Positions 6,201-60,560 of a DNA stretch of 64,000 nt are shown one piece after another (position 1 is the first letter of the stretch; the number at the start of each line of letters is the position of its first letter). The notes beneath the pieces are model-generated. The model was given only the letters and a program-made list of their open reading frames with translations. It was not told the origin of the DNA and searched no databases. The stretch comes from Scolanthus callimorphus (taxonomy: Eukaryota; Cnidaria; Anthozoa; Actiniaria; Edwardsiidae), in NCBI GenBank assembly GCA_033964015.1, contig CM066916.1:31823404-31887403 (forward strand), given 5' to 3'. Position numbers and translations under genes: made by a program.

Positions 6201-7209
6201 GAGAATGGCTCCTTTGTTCGTTCGATATTAAAATACAAACGAGTCGCATGATACGTGTATTGATAAGGAACGTATATGATATCTCCACCAGGTCTACGTG
6301 TACCAGGCCCGCGTCATCAAGGGTTTGGCTTGTACACTGAATGACCCCGTGTGTTAGTGTATACGAGTAGCGTGATACGTATGTTAGTGTATAAGGGTAG
6401 TATATGATATCTCCACCAGGTCTACGTGTACCAAGCCCGCGTCATCAAGGTTTGGCTTGTACACTGAATGACCCCGTGTGTTAGTGTATACGAGTAGCGT
6501 GATACGTATGTTAGTGTATAAGGGTAGTATATGATATCTCCACCAGGTCTACGTGTACCAGGCCCGCGTCATCAAGGGTTTGGCTTGTACACTGAATGAC
6601 CCCGTGTGTTAGTGTATACGAGTAGCGTGATACGTATGTTAGTGTATAAGGGTAGTATATGATATCTCCACCAGGTCTACGTGTACCAAGCCCGCGTCAT
6701 CAAGGGTTTGGCTTGTACACTTGATGACCCCAAGAGACTCGTCAGAACAGAGGCCGTCAAGTGTCGCAACGAATGGTAAGGGGAAATTTCAAGTCATCCG
6801 TCATCATAAAAAACTACCGTAATTCGTTATCGTAAAAATCATCATCTTCATTGCCATCATCATCTCTCATCATCATCATCATCATCATTTCTATCATCAT
6901 TATCATAAAAAAAGATAAATGTATCACTACATCACTATCACTAACTGCAATTGGTTAGACTTTCACGTCTTCTCGGATAAGGACGTTCATTTTAGGTCTC
7001 GCAACGGAAGATTTTATTTGTTTGTGTTTGTTTGTGTTTGCTTCTTTGTTTGTTTGTGTTTTTTTTTTGTGTGCTTGTTTATTTGTGTTTTTTTTGTGTG
7101 TGTTTTTTTTTGTTTTGTTTGTAACCATAGGATGACTTGCGAGAAGTCGTGTTCGTCAATCGCTATTCTGTTCTTTTCTAGGTTCTTGATTGGGAGCAGC
7201 TCAAGATAA
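249..7209 (+). CDS. MMS19: MMS19 C-terminal part (cytosolic Fe-S assembly / DNA repair HEAT protein), 3' exons only
   Basis: MMS19 is a HEAT-repeat protein that, with CIAO1 and CIAO2B, hands Fe-S clusters to cytosolic and nuclear enzymes such as XPD and DNA polymerases. Ten exons join in phase: 249-375, 1255-1358, 2056-2112, 2933-3046, 3172-3244, 3736-3818, 4722-4889, 5836-5895, 6675-6775 and 7182-7209. Together they give 304 residues and a stop at 7207-7209. Each has AG/GT borders. The product aligns by eye with the human C-terminus: CLAGIVNK, TKALVIRSHPL, AADGF, KQRFF, LLSTLQTL, VRTEAVKCRNEW and a short FLIGSSSR tail that matches the human EWFLLG ending. The last intron starts at GTAAGG (6776), which also creates an in-frame TAA if it is not spliced. 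The tail exon codes only nine residues. The 5' two thirds lie left of the window. Partial extra copies of the penultimate exon are listed separately. Confidence 0.93.
690..1010. repeat. Hairpin repeats with 'TCGTTCGCTGCGCTCACTCG' cores (MMS19 intron)
   Basis: Two inverted-repeat blocks lie back to back: roughly 730-835, then 860-995. In each, an arm ending in a TTCGCTGCGCTCACTCGTGAG-like core is followed by its approximate reverse complement. The second block is flanked on both sides by the palindromic pair ATACATGGGCGC/GGGCCCATGTAT. They look like non-autonomous hairpin MITEs. A related hairpin sits at 4926-5080. Confidence 0.7.
3315..3565. repeat. ~73-bp tandem repeat with an inverted copy (MMS19 intron)
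   Basis: The phrase GAATTTCCCAAGGCACACGC...ATGGATAGCCATGGGAAA recurs in tandem (about 3320, 3390 and 3450). It is then met by an inverted partial copy at about 3505-3560. The ORFs across it are artefacts of the repeat. Confidence 0.75.
4318..4511. repeat. Palindromic MITE, ~194 bp (MMS19 intron)
   Basis: The left arm starts AGACCTCCTCGGCTTGGGCG and the right arm ends with the reverse complement (CGCCCAAGTCGAGGAGGTCT). The arms are about 80 bp and nearly perfect around a short centre. ORFs on both strands are mirror images of each other and not genes. Confidence 0.85.
4926..5080. repeat. Hairpin MITE with CGAACGAGCGCAGCGAGTGAG core
   Basis: The ends read GGATATTACACGGTGGC and GCCACCGTGTAATGTTC. 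The inner arms AAAATATTGTT are inverted around an 'ACGAACGAGCGCAGCGAGTG' core. It belongs to the same family type as the hairpins at 690-1010. Confidence 0.75.
5560..5800 (+). mobile_element. 3' tail remnant of a non-LTR retroelement or SINE
   Basis: The sequence TTGTAAAGCGCCTAG...AAGCGCTATATAAAT followed by a CCTTGTCCTTATCC repeat tail resembles the common 3' ends of CR1/L2-type LINEs and their SINEs. No coding part remains. Confidence 0.5.
5998..6200. repeat. Inverted-repeat element between MMS19 exons 8 and 9
   Basis: GAGCTCCCCGGCTCGTCTCCTCGCG at about 6004 is mirrored by CGCGAGATGACGAGCCTGGAGCTC at about 6170. A related half (ACCAGAGCC...GACGAGCCGGGGAGCTCTGG) lies at 62588-62632, so this is a dispersed family. 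Confidence 0.65.
6292..6357 (+). pseudogene. Decoy exon copy 1 of MMS19 exon 9
   Basis: This copy has an intact acceptor and reads VYVYQARVIKGLACTLNDP before VC and a stop. Splicing to it would truncate MMS19 about 24 residues early. Confidence 0.75.
6420..6467 (+). pseudogene. Decoy exon copy 2 of MMS19 exon 9 (frameshifted)
   Basis: The acceptor is the same, but one G is missing from the GGG run after ATCAA. The reading frame shifts after VYVYQARVIK and stops six codons later. Confidence 0.75.
6547..6612 (+). pseudogene. Decoy exon copy 3 of MMS19 exon 9
   Basis: It is essentially identical to copy 1, with an intact acceptor and a stop after LNDPVC. Confidence 0.75.
6847..7118 (+). repeat. 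Low-complexity ATC repeats and T/GT-rich tract in the last MMS19 intron
   Basis: The tract consists of CATCAT repeats (about 6847-6905) followed by TTTGTTTGTG-rich sequence (about 7013-7118). The ORFs in this stretch reflect composition only. The final coding exon at 7182 follows a TTCTTTTCTAG acceptor. Confidence 0.8.
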
Positions 7210-7472: not shown

Positions 7473-7810
7473 GTCTGTCACGTGGTTGTCTGTCACGTGG
7501 TTGTCTGTCACGTGGTTGTCTGTCACGTGGTTGTCTGTCACGTGGTTGTCTGTCACGTGGTTGTCTGTCACGTGGTTGTCTGTCACGTGGTTGTCTGTCA
7601 CGTGGTTGTCTGTCACGTGGTTGTCTGTCACGTGGTTGTCTGTCACGTGGTTGTCTGTCACGTGGTTGTCTGTCACGTGGTTGTTTGTCACGTGGTTCTC
7701 TATCACGTTGTTGTCTGTCACGTTGTTGTTTGTCACGTGGTTGTTTGTCACGTGGTTGTTTGCCCGGTGGTTGTCTGTCACGTGGTTGTTTGTCACGTGG
7801 TTGTCTGTCA
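7473..7810 (+). repeat. 15-bp minisatellite, ~22 copies, each with a CACGTG E-box
   Basis: The unit GTCACGTGGTTGTCT is repeated about 22.5 times. The first ~14 copies are nearly perfect and the later ones vary (TATCACGTTG, GCCCGGTGG). Because 15 is divisible by three, several frames stay open and give false proteins of 130-170 residues. Confidence 0.95.
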
Positions 7811-41600: not shown

Positions 41601-43045
41601 CTTCAACCAAGACAGCTCAACCTAGAAAGAAGACAAAATGGAGCAGATTTTGTATGACTGTAGAAAGGTACTGAAAACGGTGCGACACATAACCTTTCCT
41701 TCTGTTCTTCAACACAATGTAACTAATGAATGTAACGAGTGTGCAATAAAGTTGAATTGAATTGAGTCAGCCAATCACTTTTCCAATATTACTGATCAGC
41801 GAAATATCCATGTGAAAATGGTGAATTTATTTCAGAAAGACAAAGGATTTTTCTTCATGTAAACATGTGTTTCAGATGGGCAATTTGTGTATGTAAGGTA
41901 AGAGGTCTAGAGCAGATTATTTTGTATGACCCCCTGTAAAAAGTGCTGTGACAAACCATGGCACTGTCATAGTGAAAGCCTGCTCGCACTGCATTGGAGA
42001 GTAGTTTTAGGTAGAGAAACACAAGTTCTCCTTTCCTCCCTGCCTTTGCCACAACACTTTTCAGGGTCATAGGAAATCTGCCCTATTACACATTAACAAT
42101 TAGAATTACACTGTTATGAAATACCTTGTGTCCTCCATAGAATGCTATTTCCTCAGAGTTAGCAATCACACGTGAATGCAAGAACCTCAGTTGGCCACGT
42201 CTCTTGGACTCTTCTGCAGCCATCGTGCCAAACCTGGGCGAGAGAGCTCGTAGAGTGATGGCCGTGAAATAGATCACAACCCCAGCAATGGAGACAGGTA
42301 ACCTCCAAGACGTCCCTTGCTTCCGAGCCATGCGATCTAGCGTCAGGCAAATCATGAAGACGTCTAAACAGGGCTTAGTTAGATGCGAATATAGATGCGC
42401 AATGGAGCTGCAGAACATGCGGATATCCTCAGTCAAACATTCATCCGCGTTGGTCAATCTACTGTCTAGATTGCCGACTTTATAATAAGTTTGATTGGCA
42501 AAGTACTTCTCGTATGCGTGATTCACTAGTTCACTGCGGAACGAAAGCGCGATGCGACTTTCAAGAAACCGAATACTGCTGTTGATAAAAGTGGCTGGGA
42601 TCGCCACTGCTATCCATTTGAGCAATTGAGTGATAAATTTTGGGACGTTTTTTTGTACAATTGATTTGATTACACGCCCGTCGAGCGTGGCCACGTAGAT
42701 CGAGAGGAACGTTCGCGCGACAAGACACACAGAGTGAACGAGCAGAAGCCCGACTTGTTTACTAAACGGTCCTGGGATAACAATACGAAGTAACTTGATA
42801 AGCTGGTCAATAAAGTCCTTATCAAACGGAATCAATTGACGTTTGGTTCTCGGTTTGCTAGGATTTCCCTCACCAGGTTGCGTTTTAACTTCTTTCCTGT
42901 CTGATTCTTCGTGAAAAACAGCTGAGATATGACTGTACAGTTGCCGGCTGACTTTCGGGCCGTATTTCCGGAGAACATAAGCACTGCTTACTACAGCAGA
43001 AGCTCCAACAGCTAGTTGGACGTGTTTTCTTGAGAAAGGAGCCAT
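29646..43045 (-). CDS. ABCD1/ABCD2-like: Peroxisomal very-long-chain acyl-CoA ABC half transporter (ABCD1/ABCD2 type)
   Basis: ABCD1 and ABCD2 (ALDP/ALDRP) dimerise in the peroxisome membrane and import very-long-chain fatty acyl-CoA for beta-oxidation. Nine exons, each in phase and with AG/GT borders: 42125-43045, 41456-41621, 39468-39601, 37926-38201, 37258-37403, 34150-34295, 33783-33867, 32744-32869 and 29646-29844. They give 732 residues; human ABCD1 has 745. The 307-codon first exon encodes the membrane half with [23 protein letters not shown] and the EAA-like [10 protein letters not shown]. Later come [16 protein letters not shown], Walker [10 protein letters not shown] (510-518), the Q-loop Q547, signature FSGGEKQR (608-615), Walker B ALLDE (629-633) and H-loop His662 in ISHRPS. 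All catalytic residues are intact. The single gene cannot be assigned to ABCD1 or ABCD2, which are vertebrate paralogues. Several introns carry MITEs. Confidence 0.97.
29890..30549. mobile_element. 660-bp TIR element in ABCD intron 8
   Basis: TTAAAGCGGGACTGTCACGG at the left is inverted as CCGTGACAGTCCCGCTTTAA at the right, and the repeat continues to about 30 bp (TACGCGCATG/CATGCGCGTA). The interior has no credible ORF. The terminal TTAA may be a target-site remnant or part of the repeat. Confidence 0.88.
31180..31510. repeat. Inverted-repeat rich segment (ABCD intron 8)
   Basis: AAGGATCATGGGAAGG at about 31267 is mirrored by CCTTCCCATGATGTC at about 31313. AAGAGAGAGAAAAAACTC...GCGAGC arms flank it. 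Both-strand ORFs here mirror one another and look like repeat shadows. Confidence 0.55.
31765..31965 (+). repeat. Dispersed repeat ending ACCATATAAGGACGCCCCTTG, copy 1
   Basis: It contains GAGAGCTGAAGCATCGTATGGCGACCGTACGG, ACGCCAGAGATTTCGGCCCTGACAG and CATATAAGGACGCCCCTTGT. The same series of blocks occurs inverted at 63028-63205. Length and the TATAAGG box recall an LTR or SINE, but neither is proven. Confidence 0.7.
33268..33413. repeat. MITE family B, half copy (ABCD intron 7)
   Basis: GGTATCTTTTAGGG boxes lead into GGTCAAAAAATATGGGAGTCCCCC and a C-run. It matches one half of the 11733-12109 element. Confidence 0.7.
33525..33757. repeat. Short inverted-repeat element next to ABCD exon 7
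   Basis: CGTTTCCGGGAAACGTTGTCATCCAAAAAGCCTATAAGCTTG (33508-33546) is mirrored by CAAGCTTATAGGCTTTTTGGGTGACAACGTATCCCGG (33713-33751). This is a MITE of roughly 245 bp that ends about 30 bp from exon 7. Confidence 0.8.
34500..36912. mobile_element. Composite inverted-repeat element, ~2.4 kb (ABCD intron 5)
   Basis: The outer arms TACTCAATAATTATTCATGACCTAATTAGCC (34653-34685) and GGCTGATTAGGTCATGAATAATTAATGAGTA (36859-36892) are inverted. Inside lie a perfect hairpin around CCGAGGCGAAGCCGAGG (34548-34628) and three ~180-bp copies starting GTCACTAGTCATGCGCA (34864, 36200, 36450). Nested CTAGATCCAAGGACCTTTGAACTATGAATATTCATAG palindromes follow (36683-36780). A GC-richer core at 35100-36000 with a CCAAT-like box has no recognised ORF. 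Confidence 0.7.
37085..37225. repeat. MITE family A partial copy (ABCD intron 5)
   Basis: ATACCTCCCCACCAAAGGGATT...AAATTCCACAAGGGAGTGG, TTTCCCATACAATCACTG and a G-run match the family A body with decayed ends. The element lies just 33 bp downstream of the exon 5 donor. Confidence 0.65.
38245..38405. mobile_element. Hairpin MITE with AAGCAATAAAAGTACTTTC ends (ABCD intron 3)
   Basis: TTAAGCAATAAAAGTACTTTCCGCGTGCTCTCTG is mirrored by CAGAGAGCACGCAGAAAGTATTTTTATTGCTTTT, with TTACAAACAC...GTGTTTGTAAG inside. One arm of the same element recurs at 51620-51705 in the KCMF1 gene. Confidence 0.85.
38669..38845. mobile_element. MITE family A, intact copy (ABCD intron 3)
   Basis: TGTGTGGTTCCAGAAAATATCC at the left and GGATATTTTCTGGAACCACACA at the right are perfect inverted ends. 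They enclose GTGTTGAAAAATGACCCCC and a 12-G run. Confidence 0.88.
39982..40786. mobile_element. ~805-bp inverted-repeat element (ABCD intron 2)
   Basis: TGTATCAGTCAATTCCAGCG is inverted as CGCTGGAATTGACTGATACA. Sub-terminal blocks (AAAATTCCCCGCCCCCGG and its mirrored form) also face each other. No transposase-like ORF is visible. Confidence 0.85.
40907..41348. mobile_element. Tc1/mariner-like MITE, ~442 bp (ABCD intron 2)
   Basis: TACAGTAAAAACCCGCATAAAAGAACA is inverted at the right end as TGTTCTTTTATGCGGGTTTTTACTGTA. Ends of TA plus CAGT suit a TA target site, as in the Tc1/mariner superfamily. A further block, TTAAGAACA...CAGGCTGA, is also inverted. A half-element (CAGTAAAAACCGGCATATA) occurs at 62054. 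Confidence 0.82.
41690..41766 (+). mobile_element. Non-LTR retroelement tail
   Basis: The stretch TGTAACGAGTGTGCAATAAAGTTGAATTGAATTGAG has the AATAAA plus TTGAA simple-repeat end typical of 5'-truncated LINE or SINE copies. It is short and non-coding. Confidence 0.5.
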
Positions 43046-43399
43046 TGCAGAGGCTATTTAAAGGGCCACTTCTTAGTAAAATTATCACTTTTCACCGTCG
43101 CTTTCAGTGTCGCTTTCATCTTTTCTATCTCGTCGCCGCCATGTTTGACGCGTGGTCCTGGTTCTAATGGTCCGATAGTCACGTGACTGAGCAGTCACCA
43201 CAGGAGGCCCAAGGATGATTTATTATTATTTTTGTTTTTGTTTTACATTTTTATCGTTATTTTGGCGTATTTCTGTGTGGGTGCTCTAATATTTCATTTA
43301 GTCGGTTTTGCCAGGATCACCAAAATAGCTTATTTCTTTAAAAATCTGTATGAGTTTAGGTTAAGCGATGGGTTGCCTGTGGTTTTAAGCATAAACAAA
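43046..43399. promoter_or_regulatory. Candidate bidirectional promoter between ABCD and PSTK
   Basis: The two start codons lie 354 bp apart on opposite strands. The interval holds TCACGTGACT (E-box) at 43179-43189, TCGCCGCCATGTTTGAC near 43133-43148 and no TATA box. It is AT-rich toward PSTK. Shared regulation is inference from the layout. Confidence 0.5.
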
Positions 43400-54666: not shown

Positions 54667-54672
54667 TTTATT
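54667..54672 (-). terminator. Poly(A) signal AATAAA of the secreted peptide gene
   Basis: AATAAA on the minus strand lies about 50 bp beyond the stop codon at 54722. A second one is at 54510-54515. Confidence 0.55.
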
Positions 54673-54721: not shown

Positions 54722-56444
54722 TCAACAGATGCGCCCCCTGCAGCAACGTCTGAACCGCGCATCATAAACTCGTGTTCCACAGCAGGCTGGTGAAATTCCG
54801 CGTCTGAAGTTGATGACTCCTCGGCAGCAAATTCGGAAACGCGCATCATACACTCGCCTTCCGCAGCAAGCTGGTGAAATTCCGCGCTTGAAGTTGATGA
54901 CTCCTCTGCAGCAAATTCGGAAACGCGCATCATAAACTCGCCTTCCGCAGCAGGCTGGTGAAATTCCGCGCTTGAAGTTGATGACTCCTTGGCAGCAAAT
55001 TCGGAAACGCGCATCATAAACCCGCCTTCCGCAGCAGGCTGGTGAAATTCCGCGCCTGAAGTTGATAACTCCTCGGCAGCAAATTCGGAATCTCGGGTCA
55101 TATCTCCGCCGGCCGCATACGGCAGAGCTGGACCACCAGCGTCGACGGACTTCGGTCATCTTGCCAGTGCGAATTTCACCTGAAAAGATACAGCTATTTC
55201 AAAAATCGTTGTCGGTATGCTCTCAAGCCTGAGCCTGCACCGCTAGAGAAATGGGTAAAGAGATCAACAGTAAAGTAAAAATACTTTTAGATATCTCAAA
55301 GCACATTATCAAATGTAAATAGAAAAGTACAAATAAAGTATTGTTGTTGTTGTCGTCGTTGTTGTACCTGATACTCGATTCTTTTTCGGTTTTACACTAT
55401 TTCCCCTGTGGCCGTGGTCATGTTTGCGATATTTGAATGAGTACGGTCGTTTGCATATAGCTAGCGACAGCCATCGGCAAAAACATGTTTTGAAAACAAA
55501 CGCAAGCAAGTACGAGGCAGCGCGTTTCGTCATGATTTCTAAACACCGAGGAGTGAGTTGGAAAACGAGGAAAAAGCCGAGTTTTTTTGACCGACGTCGA
55601 GGTGTTTGGAAATCCTGATGAAAAAACGCTGTGGAGGTTTTGATGTCGGCTTTTCAAACGAATCATTTAATGCCGAGAAAAAGACGGAATAAAATCTAAA
55701 ATTTCGGCTTTGCAAATTAACAACGAGTATCAAACTTCCTTCACGCTTATGAGAATCTTTGTTCGATATTTCGATGAAGCGTCAACGGAGGGGGGGGGGG
55801 GGGGCGTCAAGGATTGGGTGCGTAAAAGTGATTCAAATCTAAAGATGCCAATTCCCTGCCAATTCTCCCGCATCTCATACTTCCGCCTTGGCCCCTGGGT
55901 CTAAATCCTCCCGCTTTTGAAATACAGTGTATCAATTGTAATTCGATTTGACACTGCCGCCTTGTGCAAAGACATTTTTTAGGTCGGTACTTTTGAATTC
56001 CTGAAAATTTGATTTAAAAACTATTGAGTATCTGCCTGGCATCGCTGGAAATTTGGCGCAGAGAAATCTGAGAAGAACAAAAGAATTGTTTAATCATCAG
56101 ATAATCAATCCGTTTGGCCCCTGAATACGTCCAAGAAGTCCGATCAGTCGAGGAAGCGAGCTGGCAAATGGGCGAGCATGAAGGATAAAATAAATCGCGA
56201 TAAAAACGTAAGGTTTGTCGGGGGCGGAATATCGCAAGTCTTTTAGTATAATTGTGAGAGTGGAAGTGAGAGATTGAGGAAACTCACCAGGGCTTGTTTC
56301 GTCTGCATTCAACTCTGCTTTGTCTGCTTGTTCTTCGTGCTCGCGTTCTTCAGCTCCTGCAATCTCGTCCTGAAGAGGCACCGCTGTGATGAAACTCATC
56401 ACTACCAACAGAAGAACGAGTACAACAGCTTTGATTGACTTCAT
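54722..56444 (-). CDS. Secreted multi-copy cationic cysteine-rich peptide precursor (family not recognised)
   Basis: Two exons, 56288-56444 and 54722-55179, join in phase (CCTG|GTGAGT donor, TATCTTTTCAG acceptor) to give 204 residues. Residues 1-21 are a clear signal peptide (MKSIKAVVLVLLLVVMSFITA). Residues 22-53 are acidic and Glu/Asp-rich, as in prepropeptides that balance a basic product. From 78 to 189 come four units of exactly 28 residues (84 bp), then a cut-off fifth (190-204). Each has Cys at unit positions 9, 10, 24 and 25, so CC(X13)CC, then Gly-Arg-Arg, which reads as an amidation plus dibasic cleavage signal. A further KR or RR sits inside each unit before GISPACC. Unit 4 has GTR instead of GRR. 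A half unit with one Cys precedes the array (60-77). The product could be an antimicrobial peptide, neuropeptide or toxin; the sequence does not decide. A TATA box and poly(A) signal support a real gene. Confidence 0.8.
54757..55092 (-). repeat. 84-bp coding tandem repeat of the secreted peptide gene
   Basis: The landmark GCGCATCAT recurs at 54757, 54841, 54925 and 55009, exactly 84 bp apart, with only a few substitutions per copy. A second minus-strand frame without cysteines (54712-55101) stays open for the same reason and is a shadow. The cysteine frame is the one in phase with the signal-peptide exon. Confidence 0.93.
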
Positions 56445-59774: not shown

Positions 59775-60560
59775 GGTACATGACCCCTACGCACCGCGTG
59801 CGACACCATCCTCTCGCGCCAGATGTATATAGTACATGCCTCCACGCACCGCGTGCGACATTATCCCTCCTACATATGGTACATATCCCACCGCACCACA
59901 TGCGGTATATCCCTCCTAGCACCACGTGCGGTATCCTCCTCGCCCACGTGCGGTATAGCTCGACCCTGTCCTTCCCCCTCCCTCTTCGCACCCCGTGCGG
60001 TATTCTCCTCGCACCACATGCGGTAAATCTCCTCGCACCACGTGCGGTACGTTCCTCCTCTTGTACCCCCTTCTTTCGGTCTAAAAAATTTTCCCCTGAC
60101 ACAAACGTGCCAGAAAAATTACCTCGCACCAGGTGCGGTAAATCTCCTCGCACCACGTGCGGTAAATCTCCTCGCACTACGTGCGGTACGTTCATCCTCT
60201 TGTACCCCCCTCCTTGCGATCTAAAAATTTTGTCCCTGACACAAACGTGCCATAAAAATTGCCTCGCACCAGGTGCGGTAAATCTCCTCGCACTACGTGC
60301 GGTAAATTCCCTCGCACCACGTGCGGTACGTTCCTCCTCTTGTACCCCCTCCCTGCGGTCTAAAAATTTTGTCCCTGACACAAACGTGCCATAAAAATTG
60401 CCTCGCACCAGGTGCGGTAAATCTCCTCGCACTACGTGCGGTAAATCTCCTCGCACTACGTGCGGTACGTTCATCCTCTTGTACCCCCCTCCTTGCGGTC
60501 TAAAAATTTTGTCCCTGACACAAACATGCCATATAAATTGCCTCGCACCACGTAACGCAC
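59775..60560 (+). repeat. Higher-order repeat: ~140-bp unit made of ~23-bp CACGTG-bearing subunits
   Basis: Subunits CTCGCACCACGTGCGGTAAAT (with ACTACGTGC and CCAGGTGC variants) occur about 18 times. From about 60060 they group in threes with a spacer containing TTGTACCCCC and AAATTTTGTCCCTGACACAAA. That spacer recurs at 60060, 60200, 60340 and 60479, a period of 139-140 bp. ORFs of over 200 codons on both strands are artefacts. Confidence 0.93.

Follow-up and report, generated by a model that had tools for sequence, protein, structure and literature searches.

Gly-Arg-Arg words in a short, strongly basic galaxin-like protein of Scolanthus callimorphus are better read as hairpin turns than as prohormone cleavage sites

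Introduction

Gly followed by two basic residues is an established processing signal, and the precursors of amidated neuropeptides in cnidarians are secreted proteins with repeated units and such Gly-dibasic words. The window analyzed here, a stretch of 64,000 nucleotides from Scolanthus callimorphus (contig C6:31823404-31887403, from an assembly of 597 Mb in 302 contigs), contains a gene in which a signal-like exon precedes tandem cysteine-rich units, most of which end in Gly-Arg-Arg (GRR). A sequence-only reading of this DNA took the product for a multi-copy amidated prohormone of an undescribed family, which raises the question of whether the GRR words are sites of peptide release or part of a different kind of protein.

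Gene structure and domain layout

Inspection of the DNA and its translation places the gene on the minus strand, with two coding exons, a phase-1 intron between them and a product of 204 aa. The coding part of exon 1 (56288..56444, 157 nt) starts with the ATG at 56444 and encodes a putative signal peptide (approximately residues 1-22, the cleavage point being placed by eye), an acidic segment that extends to residue 52 and the first base of codon 53; judged by eye, MKSIKAVVLVLLLVVMSFITA resembles an N-terminal signal peptide. The predicted GT...AG intron (55180..56287) runs from the donor CTG/GTGAGT, whose GT begins at 56287, to the acceptor TTTTCAG/GTGAAA, after which 55179 is the first exon base. 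The coding part of exon 2 (54722..55179, 458 nt including the stop codon, which ends at 54722) encodes the end of the acidic segment, a basic site and the repeats. Among the 13 acceptor candidates listed between the donor and the repeats (at least 60% pyrimidines upstream), only that at 55179 carries the donor frame through the repeats, and does so in the cysteine frame; the other 12 fail to reach the repeats and were rejected. On the same strand, a TATA box, TATATATA, is present at 56499-56492, 48-55 bases 5' of the ATG, where it may act as promoter element, and an AATAAA (54667..54672) about 50 bases past the stop is the probable polyadenylation signal. The gene is real and had been assembled correctly from sequence, including the TATA box and the in-phase junction of the signal-peptide/acidic exon with the repeat exon, and its structure in the DNA suggests that the intron is spliced in vivo.

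The C-terminal 138 residues (54725..55138) form a cationic domain with 20 cysteines, arranged as nine CC pairs spaced 11 or 13 residues apart and two single cysteines, one towards each end. Behind the N-terminal single-Cys cap (SAVCGRRR) follow four 28-residue units, namely unit 1 (YDPRF...CCGRRV; 55019..55102), unit 2 (54935..55018), unit 3 (54851..54934) and unit 4 (54767..54850), and then a partial fifth, terminal unit, YDARFRRCCRGRIC, with the second single-Cys cap (54725..54766). The four full units had been described as exact copies, each with a GRR end; they are in fact near-identical, with four variable residues (P/A, R/Q, R/K and R/T) plus silent changes, and the GRR end is found in units 1-3 but is replaced by GTR in unit 4. 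The basic site RRR (55139..55147), a candidate proprotein-convertase site, lies ahead of the domain and precedes WWSSSAVCG. With the signal cut and the basic site placed by eye, the acidic segment has a pI of 4.58 and a charge of -5.9, whereas the basic domain has a pI of 10.85 and a charge of about +28.6 at pH 7, in agreement with the secreted-looking precursor with an acidic segment ahead of cationic repeats that the sequence-only reading had described.

A member of the galaxin family

The galaxin family was first described from coral skeletons. Residues 72-201 of the window protein match the Pfam model PF24748, Galaxin_repeat, with 110.7 bits (cut-off 28; E 6e-32), the alignment covers profile positions 2-131 of 131, and at the level of the model the domain shows no difference from the family. 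Four further Pfam-A models tabulated for the protein all score under their cut-offs, and a search of NCBIfam gave no match for it. Additionally, a single-sequence protein search returned four proteins, all of them with PF24748, and a profile search returned nine (8/9 with PF24748; two from the worm Lamellibrachia satsuma). By these sequence matches, the gene encodes a member of a known family, and the layout regarded as undescribed had been published in 2009 for the Amgalaxin-like proteins, as the accessible part of that paper indicates (PMC2726143).

The succession of putative signal peptide, acidic domain and basic di-cysteine region (pI 4.58 and 10.85) is that of the Amgalaxin-like type, with which the window protein was compared by published description rather than by sequence. 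In the available text on Acropora millepora, Amgalaxin-like 1 and 2 have a signal peptide, an acidic domain and Cys-rich repeats, which as in the window protein are more alike than those of galaxin, and Amgalaxin-like 1 also has a basic Cys-rich region, with repeats of 29 residues vs. 28 here and with pI values of 3.21 for the acidic and 12.39 for the Cys-rich region (PMC2726143). The same text gives lengths of 660 and 582 aa, compared with 204 here, and one di-cysteine per repeat in Amgalaxin-like 1 and three per 41 residues in Amgalaxin-like 2, compared with two per 28 residues here (PMC2726143). Galaxins sensu stricto (Galaxea galaxin and Amgalaxin), as described in the same excerpts, have in common with the window protein the repeats of about 30 residues with two di-cysteines and a dibasic processing site (a candidate one in the window protein), but are acidic (pI ~4.5), measure 292-298 aa when mature and lack an acidic domain (PMC2726143); at 138 aa and pI 10.85 the domain described here departs from galaxins sensu stricto in both length and charge.

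Predicted fold and proposed disulfide ladder

The domain has the tandem repeats of galaxins, with di-cysteines roughly 10-15 residues apart. The calcarins of the sponge Sycon likewise have di-cysteines typically 10-15 residues apart, single-Cys caps and predicted disulfide-linked hairpins, but they are very divergent in sequence and lack repeat units of such detail, according to the portion of the source available (PMC12419799). An AlphaFold2 model of exon 2, based on 10 sequences, has a mean pLDDT of 89.9 and a pTM of 0.70 (the other four models: mean pLDDT 88.0, 86.9, 85.5 and 66.6), with exon 2 residues 1-13 under pLDDT 50. The predicted β-hairpins are arranged as in the accessible description of galaxins and calcarins (PMC12419799). 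Specifically, predicted strands 46-49 and 52-55 flank G50-R51, so that PACC-GR-RVYD forms a hairpin with Gly-Arg as its turn. A PDB sequence search with the window protein found no match up to E 10, and when the model was compared with PDB structures by Foldseek, the strongest of seven matches had an E of only 5.0, so that no solved structure resembles the model and the fold stands without support from solved structures.

Since distances between cysteines are not part of the model output, the disulfide ladder was taken from the literature, where AlphaFold models of galaxins and calcarins, as far as the published account could be consulted, bond the first Cys of a pair with the second one of the hairpin before it and close the ends with single-Cys caps (PMC12419799, 2025). 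When this register is transferred to the window protein, it yields ten bonds and zero free cysteines, and the even count of 20, with a single Cys towards each end, is what such a ladder requires. By this analogy, the window protein probably carries the ladder, in which predicted bonds such as that between exon 2 residues 49 and 61 would bridge each CC-Gxx junction.

Paralogues on a second contig

Besides itself, the repeat DNA has at least ten matches in the genome, some of them overlapping and all on contig C8. In the five C8 stretches around these matches we counted nine galaxin loci, three at 9.75-9.76 Mb, one at about 9.90 Mb and five at 11.006-11.024 Mb (one of the latter five being cut by the end of its stretch), and all nine match PF24748. 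Every one of them reads RVRR directly before the first single Cys, ahead of the repeats, where the window gene reads VRRR. Inspection of the upstream DNA revealed a phase-1 exon start after an AG acceptor, like that of the window gene, in 8/9 paralogues. Upstream of four paralogues lies a signal-like exon that ends in a phase-1 donor, and in four others a search over 6,000 bases or up to the start of the locus found no such exon; the only one upstream of the ninth is common to its neighbor. The acidic exon of the window gene had no match among 12 other loci, several of them overlapping. A larger paralogue (C8:11012728-11013966, minus strand) has an open stretch of 413 residues with two Galaxin_repeat stretches (205 bits), which indicates that repeat number varies widely within the C8 cluster.

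A probable structural or possible antimicrobial role

By analogy with described galaxins, the product is most likely a secreted, strongly cationic, disulfide-laddered protein of the matrix or surface, and possibly an antimicrobial one like the squid galaxin. A galaxin-like protein with one laddered cationic domain and a structural or attachment-matrix role is the account that we hold to be quite probable. The signal peptide would be removed upon entry into the secretory pathway, and the acidic segment would offset the strongly positive charge of the repeats up to the point at which a convertase cuts once, at the basic site just ahead of WWSSSAVCG and before the repeats. The freed 138-residue domain would fold into a chain of short β-hairpins, and, because each di-cysteine would be bonded to its neighbors, we propose that it persists as a single stiff, cationic rod or sheet that releases no peptides. 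Outside the cell, the domain would bind anionic partners such as mucus, matrix glycans and acidic matrix proteins, and serve a structural purpose or form part of an attachment matrix. That the acidic part is removed is something that we only infer, since the site reads VRRR instead of RVRR and the available text on Acropora assigns the acidic domain to the mature Amgalaxin-like proteins (PMC2726143). Calcification need not be the role, since galaxin-like proteins are reported from cnidarians that have no skeleton in the accessible parts of two papers (PMC12419799; PMC4890752). In a sea anemone, a galaxin-like gene was upregulated in populations from vents, according to the text available (PMC11985324).

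The main rival shares the gene and the fold with this explanation and differs in the role alone, so that the probabilities of the two overlap. It holds that the same galaxin protein is mainly an effector of epithelium or mucus, whose positive charge disturbs bacterial surfaces and which the acidic prosegment keeps inactive, a role that the charges of the two parts (about +28.6 over the 138 residues of the mature part and -5.9 in the prosegment) would suit. It draws on the squid galaxin EsGal1, likened here by description rather than by sequence, which provides a precedent for a non-skeletal role and was reported, in the accessible part of the study, to be active against Gram-positive marine bacteria (PMC5216023). 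In line with this, galaxin is named among the antimicrobials of squid mucus (PMC8547416), and a mussel galaxin is tabulated among the hemocyte genes whose regulation changed most when Vibrio was injected (PMC6697025), in the available sections of both sources. However, basic Cys-rich regions also occur in the coral galaxin-like proteins that have been linked to settlement and early calcification, as the same Acropora text describes (PMC2726143). An antimicrobial role is therefore a possibility that we entertain tentatively, and the structural or matrix role is preferred.

GRR junctions and the prohormone reading

If the gene encoded a multi-copy prohormone, a convertase would cut at each GRR, and a carboxypeptidase and the amidating enzyme would then produce several amidated peptides with two disulfides each. 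In favor of such processing, the domain has three CC-GRR junctions and, in its cap, a C-GRR. Nevertheless, the 43 junctions of the form CC-xxx-xY[D/N] in the C8 stretches read GTR (21), GRQ (8), GRR (2) and GTK (2), with ten further words found once each, so that GRR stands at 2/43 junctions in the paralogue stretches as opposed to 3/4 in the window gene, where unit 4 lacks it. Gly comes first in 40 of the 43 words. A nearly constant Gly followed by two drifting residues is what a hairpin turn would predict, and in the model GRR indeed falls inside a predicted hairpin. Furthermore, the disulfide register in the consulted part of PMC12419799 crosses every junction, and a cut there would consequently free no peptide. 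Whereas cnidarian amidated neuropeptide precursors carry the Gly-dibasic word in repeated units, the window protein is a Cys-rich folded domain, assigned to PF24748, in which this word is not conserved among the relatives. No galaxin-derived peptide is named in the titles or visible abstract openings of the eight papers found to mention both galaxin and neuropeptide.

Processing at GRR was therefore rejected, and a multi-copy amidated prohormone is very unlikely; the repeated GRR is one local form of a predicted hairpin turn whose residues vary, and the product is most plausibly a single long secreted protein, stapled by disulfides, and not a series of small peptides resembling hormones. There is a slim chance that the window copy, in which most turns now read Gly-Arg-Arg, is a convertase-sensitive, multi-unit cationic effector derived from a structural galaxin, nicked at each junction and opened extracellularly into active pieces by reduction or proteolysis. 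What had resembled a new class of Cys-rich prohormone thus comes down to a short and strongly basic protein of galaxin type, whose gene has nine or more paralogous loci on another contig. It also serves as a warning that a Gly-dibasic word can be a hairpin turn when it lies within Cys-rich repeats. As charge, repeat number and junction residues vary between copies, small basic galaxins, and not the long acidic skeletal one, are useful for the study of the function that galaxins had before their use in coral skeletons.

Coding frame and constraint

With its period of 84 bp, the repeat leaves the other frames open as well. When the four full units are compared in all six pairs, the cysteine frame has a pN/pS of 0.19, and the two alternative frames have values of 1.07 and 1.01 (15 variable sites; a purely descriptive comparison). 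When the window gene is compared with five of the nine paralogues on C8, the four computable pairs give dN/dS values of 0.12, 0.15, 0.17 and 0.09, ratios that are rough because silent sites are near saturation (dS 1.2-2.3), and the fifth pair is saturated at silent sites. These values identify the cysteine frame as the coding frame, in agreement with the sequence-only reading, and the cysteine-free frame was rejected. A non-coding or misframed 84-bp repeat, such as a minisatellite or pseudogene, is hardly credible: the open alternative frames and a switch of frame within the array of one C8 paralogue would suit it, but the constraint is specific to one frame and seen between paralogues, and the splice sites, the stop codon and the poly(A) signal are all intact.

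The paralogue in question (C8:9904633-9905757, minus strand) shifts inside its array from the cysteine frame to an acidic, cysteine-poor frame, and is either a pseudogene or the result of an assembly indel.

Other features of the window

Three further tandem arrays lie in the window. The first (6272-6731) consists of 3.6 copies of a 128-bp unit with 97% matches, and the second (7473-7810) of 22.5 copies of a 15-bp unit with 94% matches; on both strands, several reading frames of the latter are open, and its long ORFs are therefore probably not genes. The third (59986-60550) comprises about four copies of a 139-bp unit, inside which CACGTG palindromes are found. Finally, an open stretch on the minus strand (42086-43057) matches PF06472, the transmembrane region of ABC transporters, with 268.2 bits, and we take it to be of the peroxisomal ABCD type.
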